DNA from: a virus
DNA: 35,803 nucleotides
Virus record (IMG/VR): IMGVR_UViG_3300046006_001711
Span: 1-35,803 of that record
Direction: 5' to 3' (one strand)
Shown here: piece after piece, positions 18,618 to 35,803 of the stretch
How positions within the stretch are numbered: position 1 is the first letter of the stretch
How the letters are laid out: every line of letters begins with the position of its first letter
The notes under the pieces: model-generated
The model's database searches: none
Seen by the model: only the letters and a program-made list of their open reading frames with translations
What the model was told of the DNA's origin: nothing
Made by a program: the position numbers and the translations under genes

Positions 18618-19058
18618 ATGACATACGAATATCCTTGGACGTACAATGGTGTAATATTTGACTCTGAGGATATTGGTGCATACTACGGTTTCATTTATAG
18701 AATAACCAACCTTACTAACGGCTACGATTATGTTGGCCGTAAGTATTTTAAAACTATCAAAAAAAGACCACCGTTAAAAGGCAAGAAGAACAAACGTCTA
18801 GAAACAATTGAAACTGATTGGAAAGACTATTGGGGTTCTTCGAGTCGACTAGTAGCAGATATCCTAGCTTTAGGCAAGGAACAGTTTAAACGCGAAATTA
18901 TACATCTATGTCTAAGTCGTGGTGAAACTAACTACATGGAAGCGCATTATCAATTTATGGAAGAAGTACTGTTGAGAGAAGATAACTACAATGGTATTAT
19001 ACAAATTAAATTAGGCAAGGGTTCCGTAAAAGATTTAAAAATTAATAAAACCAGTTGA
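18618..19058 (+). CDS. GIY-YIG endonuclease (SegE-like)
   Basis: This 146-residue protein has a GIY-YIG nuclease core: YGFIY at 23-27, YVGRK at 38-42 (Arg41 a candidate catalytic residue), DWKDYWGSSSRLVADI at about 67-82, and a probable metal-binding Glu in NYMEAHYQF (Glu108). The pattern fits the SegE-type family of T4-like phages, freestanding homing or mobility endonucleases. No second DNA-binding domain is visible, and the C-terminus is short and basic. It starts 7 bases after the histone-like gene with no strong Shine-Dalgarno sequence. Its stop codon lies inside the -35 box of a strong-looking promoter that points into the following non-coding region. Confidence 0.75.
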   Translation: MTYEYPWTYNGVIFDSEDIGAYYGFIYRITNLTNGYDYVGRKYFKTIKKRPPLKGKKNKRLETIETDWKDYWGSSSRLVADILALGKEQFKREIIHLCLSRGETNYMEAHYQFMEEVLLREDNYNGIIQIKLGKGSVKDLKINKTS

Positions 19059-19083
19059 CCAACAACACTAAACGTATTACAAT
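19055..19083 (+). promoter_or_regulatory. Near-consensus sigma70-type promoter of the non-coding locus
   Basis: TTGACC at 19055-19060 and TACAAT at 19078-19083 are separated by exactly 17 bases; each box differs from the Escherichia coli consensus at one position. The predicted start is near 19090. No convincing coding frame follows on this strand before the convergent gene pair at 19736, so it appears to drive a non-coding transcript. Confidence 0.6.
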
Positions 19084-19604
19084 AAACACATAGCTCCTAG
19101 ACACCAAGTCACTCTCACAGAAACAAATTCCAACTCAGCAGTAAATGTAGTTAAAAGCCCTATTGCAGATTAAGTTCTGTATTCAGAGGAGATCGTGCTC
19201 GCGTAATGGCCGCACGTGGAACGTGTAGACTAGACTACACACTGAATGGCGACCGTGTATTGTGCTATAAAAAGCGAATCAACAATATAAAAATTAGGTG
19301 TAAAAACCGAATGATTTGGGCACTGTGAAAAAGATACAACCCATATGATGACATAGTTTGGCTAACTACGGATTATGCATCAACCGTCGCAAGAAGCAAG
19401 AGTAGGGAGTACAGGGCGACCGCTTCCGTGTAAATGAATATAATCTCTTTTAGTTAGTATGATGAAGCACTCGGATGAAGTCGCTCTGTTTTACTTTGCC
19501 TGTAATGGGTGAAGTATGACTATAATCTGGATGAAGCAGTTCTAAAGTCAAAAGCATTACAGTACATATCAAAGTAAATTAGATTAATTAGATTAGAAGA
19601 AAAG

Positions 19605-19643
19605 GCATGAGCGCAAGCGAAATGCGAATGTCTTTAGACATTC
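19605..19643 (+). other. Two adjacent RNA hairpins at the 3' part of the non-coding locus
   Basis: The first stem is GCAT/ATGC, then GC/GC, closed by a GCAA (GNRA) loop, with GA opposite GAA as an internal loop that can form sheared G-A pairs. The second is GAATGTC-TTTA-GACATTC, directly abutting the first. Such stacking is typical of folded RNA and would be odd in neutral spacer. Confidence 0.5.
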
Positions 19644-19705
19644 CTTAAATGTACTTAAATGTCTTTTGCTCTTATAATGACCTTAGCTTACGTATATCAT
19701 AGTCA

Positions 19706-19731
19706 ATAAAAAAGCACAATAAATGTGCTTT
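19706..19731 (-). terminator. Rho-independent terminator for the gp26-gp51 unit, possibly bidirectional
   Basis: On the minus strand, AAAGCACA and TGTGCTTT form an 8-pair stem around a 5-base loop and run into TTTTTTATTG, directly after the gp51-like stop at 19736. On the plus strand the same stem is followed only by TTTAATATT, so it could also end the non-coding transcript, less efficiently. Confidence 0.7.
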
Positions 19732-19735
19732 AATA

Positions 19736-19954
19736 TTAAAAAAACGGGAGGCCACTTTTTTGGGTCGTTTCCATATTATCTTTAATAATCTTTCCGATAA
19801 TATCTCTTTCTTGCTGTGTTAAAAACATTGCATCTTCGTAACTTAAACCACCACGCATATACCAACACATACGTAACGCTTCTTCTCTAAAGGCTTTTGA
19901 CTCTTTATCGTAGGAATCAAGCAATTCTACGATAGCATCGTTATCTAAGGTCAA
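19736..19954 (-). CDS. Baseplate hub assembly protein, gp51-like
   Basis: This 72-residue protein has a conserved core, DKESKAFREEALRMCWYMRG, followed by GLSYEDAMFLTQQERDIIGK. I recall this as the short gene next to gp26 in T4-like cyanophages, labelled gp51, the hub assembly catalyst. T4 gp51 is longer (249), so the name rests on neighbourhood and partial memory. The start is TTG at 19954, overlapping the gp26 stop as TTGA; no Shine-Dalgarno sequence is evident, which suggests translational coupling to gp26. A terminator follows directly. Confidence 0.55.
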   Translation of the reverse strand: MTLDNDAIVELLDSYDKESKAFREEALRMCWYMRGGLSYEDAMFLTQQERDIIGKIIKDNMETTQKSGLPFF

Positions 19955-31853: not shown

Positions 31854-31872
31854 TTAAAATAGGAGTTAGTTA

Positions 31873-34800
31873 ATGGCAATAGGTCGTGTACCCGGGGCAG
31901 CACTGTTAGGAAATCTAGATAGACAAGGTCTTGATCTAGGCTTCACTACCAACAGTGACACATTATTACAGTTAGATTTTACTAACTTTCGTCTTGGTAT
32001 CAACACGGCATCTCCCCAAGAATCATTAGAAGTTACTGGGAACATTCTTGTAACAACCGGCAATATATTAACCTCAGCTAATTTAACATACGATATTGGT
32101 GCGACTAATAAATATTGGCGCAATATCTATAGCGGAAACCTTTATACTAGCAATATTACCAGTACAAATATCACTGGTACGTTAACCACAGCTATACAAA
32201 CTAATATAACCACAGTAGGTACGTTAGGCAACCTATCAGTCACTGGTAATATTGATGCAGGCAATATAATAAGTAATATCACCGGCAATGTAATTGGATC
32301 GGCAACTACGGTAACTGCATCAGCACAGCCAAATATAACATCACTGGGTATATTAACTGCTCTCGATGTAACAGGTAATGTTGGTGCAGGCAATGTTAGT
32401 GGTACATATTTAACTGGTACATTACTAACTCAAGCACAACCATACATAACATCAACAGGTATATTAACTGCTCTCGATGTAACAGGTAATGTTGGTGCAG
32501 GCAATGTCAGTGGTACATACTTAACAGGTACATTGCTAACAAGTGCTCAACCAAACATCACAACATTATCCGGTGTTACTAGCATCGGTGCAAGTGGAAG
32601 TACAGTATTAACCGGCACACTAGCGACTAATGCACAACCTAATGTTACATCTTTAGGTACATTAATATCACTAGACGTAACAGGTAATGTTGGCGCAGGC
32701 AATGTTAGTGGTACATATCTAACTGGCACACTATTGACGGCCAGCCAAACTAATGTTACATCATTGGGCACATTATCAGCATTAACAGTCAGTGGAAATA
32801 TCATTGCGCAAAGCTCTATTGTACCAACAAGTAACATTGCTGGTAATATTGGTTATGCCGATACATGGTGGAGTGCAGTATACGCTAATACAATTAATGC
32901 AACTAATTTAAATGGCACGATACTTACAACTAATCAACCTTATATTTCTAATTTAGGAAATATTACAGTTGATAGCATTTCCATTGGTGGAAATATTAGT
33001 ATTACTGGTAATGTTAACGGAACAGACATTACTGCTAACACCATAACAGCCAACACAATCACTGGCACATTACTTACAGGCAATCAGCCTAACATAACAA
33101 ATTTAAGCAACATCTCAGTTGATAGCATTTCTATTAGTGGAAATTTAGGTATCACAGGAACTACAACAGCCGGTATTATCAATGCTGATGAGATCTATGA
33201 AAGTAATATTCGTGTTGTAACTCAAGAAACTACAATTACAGTTACTGGTGATGCTACTGGCAGTGGTAATGTTTCAAATATTGCATTAACTTTAGCAGAC
33301 ACTGGTGTTACTGCAGGCACATATGGTGCTGCAGATGATGAAACATGGGATAGAATTCCTAAAATTACTGTAGACAGCAAAGGCCGCATTACAAATATTG
33401 CTAACATTACTCTTACTCAAGTCGGTAATGTAACCTTTACTGATACAACTATATCAACAGTGGCTAACTTAACAATAGCACCAACTAATGGTTATATTTT
33501 TGCTAATAGTAGTGTTATATCTGACGTTGCTGATCCAGTTAGCGCACAGGATGTAGTTACATTAAACTATCTAACAACAACATTAAGTGGTGCTGCAAAT
33601 AGCCTAGTCATTGGTGATAGTCTAGTAAATCTAATAGATGAAACTAATAATAGTAGATTAGAAATTACCCTTGATTCAGAATTAATTGCAAATATAACAG
33701 CTAATGCATCAACATTTTACAATACTGTTAATATTGGTAACATATCAATAGTTGATAACACAATTTCATCAAGTGGAAATATATACATCGATGCACAGAA
33801 TACAGGCATTGTACAAATTGTTGGATCCGATGCACTGGGCATTCCTGTTGGAAATGTAATTACTCGTCCTCTAAATCCTGAGATAGGGTACATACGTTTT
33901 AACACTGACAATGATGCTGTGGAATACTGGACTGGCGCAGAATGGACATACCCGGGCGCAGCTACAATTACATCAGAAACTGTCTACCCTGATGGACTAA
34001 CTGCAAGCTATAATTTAACAACCTCGGCTACTCCAGACGGGTTGCTAGTTAGTATCAACGGTACAATGCAACAACCATTTACATCATATAATATGTCTGG
34101 TAATGTAATAACATTCACAGAAACTCCGCAAGATACTGATATTATTGAAATTCGACATATTGTTGCTGGCGCAGTTTCTATAGGATCACTGACCTACGGA
34201 CCTACGTCTAAAGTAGAATTATCTACTGGTAATGTCAATATTACCGGTAATTTAATACCAACAGCAAATGTCACATATGATCTGGGTTCTGATTCAATGT
34301 GGTGGCGCGACCTGTACATGAGTGGCAGTACTATTCATATTGGTGGTGCACTGCTTAAAGTAGTCGACAATGCATTGAGTTTTACTCCTGCGGGTAGCCC
34401 TACTCCGATTAATCTAACATCAGATGTTGATCCGACTATACTTATTGCAAATACCACGCAGGTCAAAGCAACTGATGACTTTGTAAATGTTTCTATTGCC
34501 GGCGGCAATGTAGGTAAATTTGGCAGTGATGGGTTAACGATCACAGGAAATGTTAGTGCAGACTACATCATAGGTGATGGCAGTCAACTAACCGGCTTGC
34601 CAGCAGGGTATACTGACACAAATGTAGCGGCATACTTACCATCTTATACAGGAAACATAAGTTCATTAACCACAGCCAACACAGCAATGAAAGGCTATGT
34701 TGATGAGCAGATTACCACTGTTACTAATTCAGTCACCGGTGCTAATGCTGCAATAGTTACAGCCAACACAGCAATGAAAGATTATGTTGATGCAGCCAAT

Positions 34801-35803
34801 ACTATACAATCAAATGAAATTACAGCCATTAGTAATAGTGTAACCGGTGCTAATACTGCAATTGTAACTGCTAACACAGCTATGAAAGGGTATGTTGATG
34901 CAATAAATTCAACTCTAACGGCCAATGCTGGAGCACAAGCAGGCACATTAGCAACTATACAAAACAACTATGCACAATTATCGGGTGCAACATTTACTGG
35001 CGCCTTGGCCGCACCAAATATATCGTTAACATCTGCACTGGCTATATCATCTGGTGGTACAGGTGGAACAAGTACTAGTTCTGCATTAAACAATCTATTA
35101 CCCAGTGGTGAAGTCAGTGGCTACGTATTAAAAACTGCAGGTGAAGGCAGTTACTATTGGAGTGCAGAAACAGGTGGAGGCAGCGTAGTTGGTACAACTA
35201 TCAGCACCAGTAGAACTTATTTTACTGCTACTTCAGGACAAACTGTATACACTGGAATCACATACACTCCGGGTGCAGGACAGTTACGCATATACATCAA
35301 TGGTGTTAGACAGTTTGACAGTGCCTATACTGAAACAAATAGTTCAGCAGTTACACTATCTACAGGAGTTACTAGCGGAACTGTAGTATTAGCAGAAGTT
35401 GACGCATATACAGATTATAATGTCTATGCTAATGCAACCTACAGTAGTCCGGTTGGAACAATTAGTTCAACTACAGTTCAAGATGCCCTGGCAGAATTAG
35501 ACACAGAAAAAGCTGCACTGGCAGGAGCAGCATTCACAGGCAACGTATCGACCAGTGGTAATCTGCGTGTTACTGATACAACACAAAGTACCGGAGAAGG
35601 AACCGGCGCACTAGTAGTCAGTGGTGGTGCAAGTTTTAGTGGAAATGTTTACATCAGCGGTAACTTACAAGTTGCTGGAACTGAAACAATATTTAATGCC
35701 AACAATCTAAGTATTGCTGACTCGCTGATATATCTAGCCGATGACAACTCCGGTGATGTATTAGATATCGGTATCGTAAGTTCGTTTACTAATCCTGGAT
35801 ATC
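31873..35803 (+). CDS. Large tail-fibre-like protein (at least 1310 residues; runs off the right edge)
   Basis: The frame is open from ATG 31873 (AGGAG upstream) to the window end. Residues 1-75 start MAIGRVPGAALLGNLDRQGL. From about 100 to 430 there are eight repeats of the form QPNITSLGTL-x-x-L-x-VTGNV, suggesting a trimeric beta-fibrous shaft. A domain at about 666-785 (IGYIRFNTDNDAVEYW through ITFTETPQDTDIIEIRHIVA) resembles the free-standing 138-residue protein. Three repeats at about 935-1010 carry TANTAMK[G/D]YVDA. A second INGVRQF-type domain is near 1105-1190, and an ISGNLQVAGTETIF module ends the window. The likely role is host recognition. No chaperone or peptidase domain is visible within the window. 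Confidence 0.8.
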   Translation, partial: MAIGRVPGAALLGNLDRQGLDLGFTTNSDTLLQLDFTNFRLGINTASPQESLEVTGNILVTTGNILTSANLTYDIGATNKYWRNIYSGNLYTSNITSTNITGTLTTAIQTNITTVGTLGNLSVTGNIDAGNIISNITGNVIGSATTVTASAQPNITSLGILTALDVTGNVGAGNVSGTYLTGTLLTQAQPYITSTGILTALDVTGNVGAGNVSGTYLTGTLLTSAQPNITTLSGVTSIGASGSTVLTGTLATNAQPNVTSLGTLISLDVTGNVGAGNVSGTYLTGTLLTASQTNVTSLGTLSALTVSGNIIAQSSIVPTSNIAGNIGYADTWWSAVYANTINATNLNGTILTTNQPYISNLGNITVDSISIGGNISITGNVNGTDITANTITANTITGTLLTGNQPNITNLSNISVDSISISGNLGITGTTTAGIINADEIYESNIRVVTQETTITVTGDATGSGNVSNIALTLADTGVTAGTYGAADDETWDRIPKITVDSKGRITNIANITLTQVGNVTFTDTTISTVANLTIAPTNGYIFANSSVISDVADPVSAQDVVTLNYLTTTLSGAANSLVIGDSLVNLIDETNNSRLEITLDSELIANITANASTFYNTVNIGNISIVDNTISSSGNIYIDAQNTGIVQIVGSDALGIPVGNVITRPLNPEIGYIRFNTDNDAVEYWTGAEWTYPGAATITSETVYPDGLTASYNLTTSATPDGLLVSINGTMQQPFTSYNMSGNVITFTETPQDTDIIEIRHIVAGAVSIGSLTYGPTSKVELSTGNVNITGNLIPTANVTYDLGSDSMWWRDLYMSGSTIHIGGALLKVVDNALSFTPAGSPTPINLTSDVDPTILIANTTQVKATDDFVNVSIAGGNVGKFGSDGLTITGNVSADYIIGDGSQLTGLPAGYTDTNVAAYLPSYTGNISSLTTANTAMKGYVDEQITTVTNSVTGANAAIVTANTAMKDYVDAANTIQSNEITAISNSVTGANTAIVTANTAMKGYVDAINSTLTANAGAQAGTLATIQNNYAQLSGATFTGALAAPNISLTSALAISSGGTGGTSTSSALNNLLPSGEVSGYVLKTAGEGSYYWSAETGGGSVVGTTISTSRTYFTATSGQTVYTGITYTPGAGQLRIYINGVRQFDSAYTETNSSAVTLSTGVTSGTVVLAEVDAYTDYNVYANATYSSPVGTISSTTVQDALAELDTEKAALAGAAFTGNVSTSGNLRVTDTTQSTGEGTGALVVSGGASFSGNVYISGNLQVAGTETIFNANNLSIADSLIYLADDNSGDVLDIGIVSSFTNPGY
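32347..32735 (+). repeat. Long direct repeats in the fibre shaft
   Basis: A segment starting GGTATATTAACTGCTCTCG at 32347 returns at 32458 almost unchanged for about 60 bases (111-base, 37-codon step). A third, more diverged copy aligns from about 32663 (198 bases further on). All copies keep the reading frame. Confidence 0.8.
34497..34525 (+). repeat. Copy 2 of an exact 29-base repeat (fibre gene)
   Basis: Identical to 21447-21475 in the tape-measure gene and in frame (AGGNVGKFG). Confidence 0.85.
34675..34899 (+). repeat. Tandem coding repeats in the fibre gene (TANTAMKGYVDA)
   Basis: Three copies start at 34675, 34762 and 34870 (steps of 87 and 108 bases). Each encodes TANTAMK[G/D]YVD, with alternating heptad-like linkers (ITAISNSVTGAN). 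Confidence 0.75.

Follow-up and report, generated by a model that had tools for sequence, protein, structure and literature searches.

A large structured RNA with matched twin boxes in T4-like phages, and its probable relatives in jumbo phages

The stretch of DNA that we analyzed (the window) is the whole of a 35.8-kb virus record, IMGVR_UViG_3300046006_001711 (35,803 nucleotides). It comes from a T4-like phage: we found genes for a late sigma factor, SbcD, SbcC, and the baseplate hub. A gap of 677 bases separates a GIY-YIG gene (18618–19058, plus strand) from a convergent 72-amino-acid frame (19736–19954, minus strand), and recombination genes adjoin the gap. An earlier reading of this DNA, made without database searches (the sequence-only reading), had noticed a gene-free gap of about 680 bases directly after a GIY-YIG gene and had proposed that it encodes a large structured non-coding RNA, perhaps of a new class. 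Both the gap and its upstream neighbor are as described. A program's list of open reading frames includes no frame of 50 amino acids or more between 19059 and 19735, and the GIY-YIG gene is of the SegE type (domain E = 1.2e-34). ARAGORN found no tRNA within the window. Near the other end of the window, a frame finder that was run without open ends reported nothing but short frames from 31866 to 35386, the majority of them on the minus strand; this is perhaps a large tail gene that leaves the end of the contig. The features in and around the gap are:

18618–19058, plus strand: GIY-YIG gene, outside the RNA
19055–19083, plus strand: promoter-like TTGACC-N17-TACAAT, overlapping the stop codon of the GIY-YIG gene and conserved in near relatives only
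19059–19156, plus strand: homing-endonuclease scar
19157–19643, plus strand: structured RNA body (5' domain, middle, pseudoknot core, twin boxes, and 3' hairpins), from nhmmer and a 66-pair structure
19165–19247, plus strand: 5' domain, with a hairpin at 19166–19179, a closing helix (19181–19186 with 19242–19247), and hairpins 19194–19198/19212–19216 and 19223–19228/19235–19240
19352–19377, plus strand: middle hairpin (19352–19357 with 19372–19377) enclosing a conserved TTGGCTAACTACGG stretch
19384–19449, plus strand: pseudoknot core, in which helix 1 (19386–19390 with 19416–19420) crosses helix 2 (19398–19402 with 19445–19449) and helix 3 (19405–19409 with 19423–19427)
19469–19480, plus strand: twin box 1, ACTCGGATGAAG, with its heptamer at 19473–19479; the bases at three variable positions match box 2
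19492–19516, plus strand: hairpin between the boxes (19492–19500 with 19508–19516)
19525–19536, plus strand: twin box 2, ATCTGGATGAAG, with its heptamer at 19529–19535; the bases at three variable positions match box 1
19605–19643, plus strand: two 3' hairpins, 19605–19625 and 19626–19643, whose pairing is kept with two-sided changes
19711–19731, no strand assigned: terminator-like hairpin between the RNA and the convergent gene

The RNA body is about 490 nucleotides long, and it has many homologs. We fetched loci with SbcC and with GIY-YIG, keeping 80 from each. Of 157 loci, the window's among them, 138 had an nhmmer match to the element. After two scans with DNA patterns, it was matched in 340 of 363 loci; this larger set is enriched by the patterns and includes some contigs that were fetched more than once. 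For a count that is blind to the RNA, we considered the 80 loci fetched with SbcC. The element is present in all 45 of those that also hold the hub or orf72. It is present in 17 of the remaining 35; of the 18 that lack it, 16 extend for less than 3 kb beyond SbcC. L038 and L065, which were also fetched with SbcC and have more than 4 kb downstream, lack both the RNA and the hub.

The element's place, between SbcC/GIY-YIG and the baseplate-hub genes, is conserved. Among 149 loci with unique cores, SbcC is upstream in all 117 where it is present in the locus, the hub is downstream on the opposite strand in all 117 where it is present, and GIY-YIG is the nearest upstream gene among the six that we searched for in 133. 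The RNA is thus kept at the equivalent place in considerably more than a hundred distinct sequences from related phages. All 12 window-type contigs that we searched have a single copy, and one of these (G004) has a weak second match as well (E = 0.09). Another of our contigs, which carries locus L006, has a second match of 95 bases (G001:C1:131981-132075, 92%) to the 5' domain only (gap positions 98–192), far from the RNA locus; it is perhaps a partial copy. Distant relatives of the window's RNA can be aligned over the 3' half only, and the 5' domain is variable. Using blastn against named phages, we found no match for the window's RNA or for its relative L118; a third query, L061, had eight short matches (E = 7e-3 or worse) at unrelated places. 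The region might instead have held a conserved protein frame, but the 40 relatives listed share no open frame, and we rejected a protein-coding reading.

The sequence-only reading had placed a strong sigma70-type promoter at the start of the gap. The motif is there and matches at 10 of 12 positions, and it is conserved within the window's clade (13 distinct sequences), but it is a trait of near relatives and is not general to window-type RNAs. Such sites are no more common than in shuffled sequence (9 found versus 7.2 ± 3.0 expected). In most window-type relatives, we found no common promoter: a site that matches at 10 of 12 positions lies within 700 nucleotides of the core in 12 of the 42 close loci, in 3 of the 45 intermediate ones, and in 2 of the 45 distant ones. 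The GIY-YIG frame of other relatives stops at or near the RNA. In the window, a scar of roughly 100 bases separates the promoter from the RNA. At the equivalent stretch, between GIY-YIG and the RNA, two relatives (L097:3565-4266 and L006:9100-9990) have an intact 234-codon frame that is homing-endonuclease-like and has NUMOD3 motifs (E = 8e-11); in the window, this frame is gone. The terminator that had been thought to end the gap did not hold up, as the hairpin at 19711–19731 scores on the minus strand only.

The folding energy of the gap is close to that of shuffled sequences (z = -1.85 for the plus strand and -1.22 for the minus strand, with 20 shuffles each), so the case for a structured RNA rests on comparison. 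We removed near-identical sequences before counting. One alignment (A1) includes 57 of 61 sequences, with four long outliers omitted, and another (A2) includes 47 of 56, with nine distant or odd ones omitted. From 299 core sequences, we left out 31 that did not parse into a fixed architecture (because of odd anchors or insertions), and we left out 11 from the counts of boxes because they did not parse into two boxes.

Compensatory change within the proposed structure is strong. In 47 full-length sequences, 95.7% of the cells of the 66-pair structure are paired, compared to 84.0 ± 0.4% after shuffling. If the structure is slid by 1–3 columns, then 35.0–43.6% are paired, although this control favors the structure, which was partly derived from the tested sequences. 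In the same 47 sequences, 35 of the 66 pairs show changes on both sides, with 354 such cells (shuffled, 106.7 ± 7.9), and the covariation score is 0.334 (shuffled, 0.119 ± 0.005). The number of further pair types is less striking (75 versus 69.8 ± 2.7, with 19 of 500 shuffles as high). Our covariation E-values are from an in-house G-test with a null simulated on the tree, not from R-scape. By this tree-corrected test, only six pairs are significant (E < 0.05) in 56 full-length sequences, because few of the sequences are independent (effective number 24). Three of the six are Watson-Crick pairs and three are between the twin boxes.

Two-sided changes occur across the RNA. In the closing helix and the last two hairpins of the 5' domain, 15 of 17 pairs change on both sides, with 95.7–100% of cells paired. 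In the middle hairpin, 5 of 6 pairs do so, with 90% of cells paired. The hairpin between the boxes is paired in 100% of cells in the 47 sequences, with two-sided changes in 2 of its 9 pairs. In the core, helix 1 enters the loop of helix 3, inside helix 2. Helix 1 is GUCGC/GCGAC in the window and GUUGU/ACAAC, GUUGA/UCAAC, or GUCAG/CUGAC in relatives. When parsing the cores, we picked helix partners for the best pairing, which inflates the pairing totals; the identity of the boxes was not a criterion. Across the 149 unique cores, helix 2 (E = 1e-4) and the twin boxes are among the top column pairs, as is helix 1 (E = 0.014, 0.043, and 0.2).

Some of the helices that the sequence-only reading had listed are conserved and others are not. 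All seven pairs of the hairpin at 19626–19643 are kept in 55 of 56 aligned sequences. The adjacent hairpin (19605–19625) was described as GNRA-capped; its four outer pairs are kept in 40 of 56 sequences, with two-sided changes, but the loop is not always GNRA (by eye, we also see GAUA, GACA, and UUUA). A proposed long-range helix of ten pairs, 19411–19420 with 19480–19489, is whole in just 4 of 56 sequences. We rejected it because its 5' strand is needed for the conserved helix 1 of the pseudoknot.

One pair in helix 3 is an invariant G-U (47 of 47 sequences), which would be A-C on the other strand. This suggests that the functional strand is the plus strand. The gap almost certainly encodes a real structured RNA on this strand, as the sequence-only reading had proposed: its place is conserved, it covaries, it lacks a frame, and it does not match Rfam (see below). 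The fixed place in the genome, the direct repeats 47–64 bp apart (the boxes), and the adjoining recombination genes could also belong to a DNA element, such as an origin or a packaging or recombination site, in which proteins would bind the repeats and any structure would be incidental. Changes on both sides that preserve pairing, the pseudoknot, the G-U pair, and the promoter motifs at related copies (described below) are all contrary to this. Covariation largely refutes the DNA-element reading, and we consider it very improbable.

The most telling feature of the RNA is its pair of boxes, which were first noticed as a repeated GATGAAG and are present at 19474–19480 and 19530–19536. The order 3' of the core is A-CUC-X-GAU-Y-A-Z, then a hairpin, and then A-UCU-X-GAU-Y-A-Z. 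In 287 of 288 parsed loci, the two heptamers are identical, and they take ten forms, nine of which have five or more members, while the tenth was seen once. This set includes near-duplicates and contigs that were fetched more than once, so the 149 unique cores give the better figure: the heptamers are identical in 148. Position X matches in 148 and positions Y and Z in all 149 (E = 0.002, 2e-4, and 2e-4), with 0% complementary, while the flanking CUC of box 1 and UCU of box 2 remain different from each other. Rare forms of the box also match (L337, L345, and L077, by eye). The boxes may differ between cores that are 92–95% identical, yet they stay matched within each RNA.

What could read these boxes? 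A phage protein, or a dimer of it, might bind both boxes, with the remaining RNA presenting them as a landing pad or sponge. Each RNA does have two identical words that are probably single-stranded and that have no complement within the RNA (0 versus 0.7 expected for the complement of its own heptamer). In the rest of the loci, the complement is not enriched (79 versus 90.0 expected) and the sense hexamer is slightly above expectation (615 versus 545.3). However, the boxes change between close relatives and also between paralogs within the genomes of 7t3, Hallingskeid, CBB, and 121Q (see below), and they are matched within each RNA. Because a common reader would not require matching within the RNA, we disfavor the landing pad and consider it unlikely. 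From boxes that are identical within each RNA but differ between paralogs, we infer direct contact between boxes or between RNAs rather than one shared reader. Most likely, the boxes would touch each other or one partner, position by position, within one RNA or an RNA dimer. A more specific idea is that they make same-base contacts register by register (base i with base i, in parallel-stranded homotypic pairing), within an RNA or between the identical RNAs of a ring or cage; this is speculative and, in our view, improbable. If it were true, there would be a folding rule that can be read from covariation but that complementarity-based models do not score, and a new class of giant RNA with several parallel versions per virus.

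We rejected two other explanations for the boxes. A single antisense target per genome does not fit, given the lack of enrichment of each RNA's own complement and the differing paralogs. Direct repeats are also used in the RT-template RNAs of DRT2 and of telomerase, but RVT_1 was found in 0 of 10 records (the control was matched in 3 of 14).

The window's SbcC is most similar to those of PA5oct (50% identity), Phosso, Atu_ph07, and the CBB/121Q group. In these phages, the framework of late sigma factor, SbcD, SbcC, and hub is kept, with other genes interposed. It was through this SbcC synteny that we reached the 121Q/CBB-type RNAs. At the equivalent place, CBB has a gap of 786 bases, and this sequence has matches in 34 phage records, 20 of them over most of its length. 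Two lines of evidence link this sequence to the window's RNA. First, we searched 12 loci (102 kb) with R1, a covariance model that was built from 57 window-type cores only. The best seven of eleven matches are CBB-type RNAs on the right strand and at the expected place (L372, E = 1.3e-5; L377, 1.2e-4; L382, 1.3e-4; L376, 0.012; L373, 0.016; L378, 0.024; L380, 0.068), and the other four are weak matches elsewhere in the 102 kb. R1 missed two of nine CBB-type copies, which are the SbcC-locus copies of CBB and 121Q (L363 and L371). With stricter filters, across the whole genomes of six named phages, it found only XaC1 (E = 4.3e-5 and 0.04). We also scanned bacterial genome contigs with one pattern, which had 17 matches there; R1 had 12, each spanning the searched pattern only (17–23 of 153 positions).

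Second, 40 CBB-type RNAs (with only exact duplicates removed; effective number 29) gave the equivalent core from their own covariation, at columns 387/414, 397/447, and 403/425, and a further pseudoknot between a loop and the tail (343–348/451–456). Most of the top-ranked column pairs are complementary, including those of the two pseudoknots. Both groups share the layout CC-helix 1, helix 2, helix 3, a loop of six or seven bases, helix 1', C(C)G, helix 3', and then AAU-helix 2'. Both groups also have twin boxes with same-base covariation. In the CBB-type RNAs, the boxes have a like arrangement with other letters: one position is U/U in 22 and C/C in 18 (E = 0.023), and another is G/G in 23, A/A in 16, and G/A in 1 (E = 0.37). 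Paralogs within 7t3, Hallingskeid, CBB, and 121Q have different boxes from copy to copy that match within each RNA. K64-1 has a diverged copy with CUUCAAG in both boxes (L373, AB897757.1). Window-type and 121Q/CBB-type RNAs very probably form one RNA superfamily of T4-like jumbo phages.

In the 121Q/CBB-type genomes, the RNA is present in several copies, which are all on one strand within each genome. We found five places each in CBB, GAP32, Kaldavass, XbC2, pEa_SNUABM_44, 7t3, Hallingskeid, fENko-Kae01, and XaC1, four in 121Q, and two in K64-1. These counts are groupings of matches, the count for K64-1 is from one CBB query, and three CBB matches of 31–62 bases were not counted as copies. In GenBank, the RNA region of some CBB-type records (such as L365, L368, or L369) bears small hypothetical proteins on the opposite strand, while in others it is empty; these small genes may be spurious.

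Of 20 CBB-type copies, 18 are preceded by a promoter motif, TG[AG][AG]A[CT]-N15-19-TATA[AC]T, whose place relative to the RNA is fixed. As background, the 22 loci that we searched (including two duplicates; 185,814 strand-bases) contain 22 matches to the motif in total. A second promoter class predicted in the CBB genome paper (PMC5259590) consists of TGAAACG and a TATA -10 region.

Does the RNA act on the next gene? In this account, it would be a giant cis-acting leader that controls elongation or translation of the gene that follows, and the copy between convergent genes would be a relic or would control the end of an operon. Of the nine copies known in CBB and 121Q, seven (four of five in CBB and three of four in 121Q) are 5' leaders, which occupy gaps of 612–738 bases directly before a co-oriented gene, with the promoter motif at the far end of the leader; the remaining copy in each phage is the one at the SbcC locus. 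(One of the 121Q leader gaps also has a small gene annotated on its opposite strand.) In L423, L435, L450, and L452, the last hairpin has GGAG at its tip, and an ATG follows three bases after the stem (by eye). But the genes behind the leader copies differ from copy to copy, and the window group's copy precedes convergent genes (117 of 117 where the hub was seen), with no gene on the same strand after it, and yet shows full covariation. A cis role for the leader copies is the best rival to our proposal, but we think that this account is rather unlikely.

We lean toward a main role in trans. The core recurs in three settings: after GIY-YIG where convergent genes flank it, as a unit between other genes that has a promoter motif of its own, and as a long 5' leader of several unrelated genes. 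This lack of a constant target gene argues for a role in trans. The copy numbers are in favor of it as well, with one copy per window-type contig, several on one strand in ten 121Q/CBB-type genomes, and two in K64-1. For the 121Q/CBB-type leader copies, a secondary role in cis is plausible, given the GGAG in the last hairpin just before the start codon.

PA5oct has three places with a common block of 122–130 bases, and each is preceded by a promoter-like TTGACA-N17 site (by eye). Two of the three contain a pseudoknot with the superfamily's layout, in which helix 1 is GGGAU/GUCCC in one and GGCAU/GUGCC in the other; this difference is compensatory. One of these places is ncRNA004 (NC_071039.1, 246116–246734), a 619-nucleotide "putative lncRNA" that was annotated from RNA-seq. 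In the open-licence literature, we found no paper behind this annotation. ncRNA004 is from a jumbo phage with the same SbcC-to-hub framework, but R1 finds no match there and twin boxes are not recognized. (R1 had no match below E = 3 in PA5oct, Phosso, or Atu_ph07.) The link to PA5oct therefore rests on synteny and on a short descriptor that was widened after the fact. In its first form, the descriptor matched L508 and missed both L507 and L509, while 285,460 shuffled bases gave 5 chance matches; it also matched the minus strand of L361, one extra site in L001, and two sites on minus strands of other loci. After viewing L509, we widened the loop and the spacer, and then L508 and L509 match and L507 does not, with 0 matches in 83,745 shuffled bases. 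The ncRNA004 copy (GGCAU/GUGCC) fits only with the wider loop. The descriptor is absent from the PA5oct place that is syntenic with the window's locus. It is likely, though not certain, that ncRNA004 is related to this superfamily, and it would then be a possible sign that such RNAs are expressed.

To compare the RNA to known families, we used Rfam 15, as the sequence-only reading had suggested for GOLLD, ROOL, group I introns, and tmRNA. No family reaches its gathering score in the window, and there is no match to group I introns, tmRNA, or tRNA by Rfam or ARAGORN. When we scanned permissively (1 kb around the RNA, 8 relatives, and 12 CBB-type loci), only other families came up, all below threshold, and the matches around the window's RNA look like chance. 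Across ten genomes, the GOLLD model (RF02032) matches only Phosso, a 469-kb Sinorhizobium jumbo phage (L513, PV764938.1), at 33533–34001 (E = 1e-53), away from the SbcC-to-hub region; it does not match the window's record. That region of Phosso includes 1,014 bases without an annotated gene. The ROOL model (RF03087; 574 positions) matches none of the ten genomes, but the control genomes were silent too, so this search has no positive control.

The RNA does resemble these families. According to one paper (PMC12286853), GOLLD is a phage-encoded RNA of several hundred nucleotides whose function is not known, with a conserved 3' region, a less conserved 5' region, and a pseudoknot; ROOL is phage-encoded, with an ornate fold and a function that is not known; and both assemble into RNA-only cages (a 14-mer for GOLLD and an 8-mer for ROOL). 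GOLLD is often, though not always, near tRNA genes, whereas the window's RNA has no tRNA neighbor. Also unlike GOLLD, our superfamily has twin identical boxes and, in one branch, several copies per genome. ROOL is set apart by the model search, without a detailed comparison of structures. A divergent GOLLD or ROOL would account for a large phage RNA with, as in GOLLD, a conserved 3' half and a variable 5' half (same source). But given the silent ROOL model (with its silent controls), the single GOLLD match in Phosso far from the SbcC gap, and permissive scans that hit only other families, we consider this exceedingly improbable. We found no description of this RNA in the literature that we searched (titles and abstracts, and open-licence papers only). 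By descent, the RNA is a new class; its kind, giant structured phage RNAs, is already known.

This RNA resembles GOLLD and ROOL in that it has pseudoknots and a 3' half that is more conserved than its 5' domain, and in that no enzyme is its constant partner. We propose that it is a trans-acting architectural RNA that works like them. It would be made during infection from phage promoters, would fold into a compact body, and would probably assemble with itself or with a phage protein. Taken as a whole, this proposal could equally well prove right or wrong. Self-assembly in particular is possible but somewhat doubtful.

These RNAs would add a large and strongly covarying superfamily to a kind that has very few classes (GOLLD and ROOL). 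Its hosts are cultured jumbo phages of E. coli, Salmonella, Klebsiella, Erwinia, and others, perhaps including P. aeruginosa, so the function can be tested in them. The twin boxes, with their same-base covariation, give a clean but unexplained signal, and a structure would show whether methods that rely on complementarity miss such contacts.
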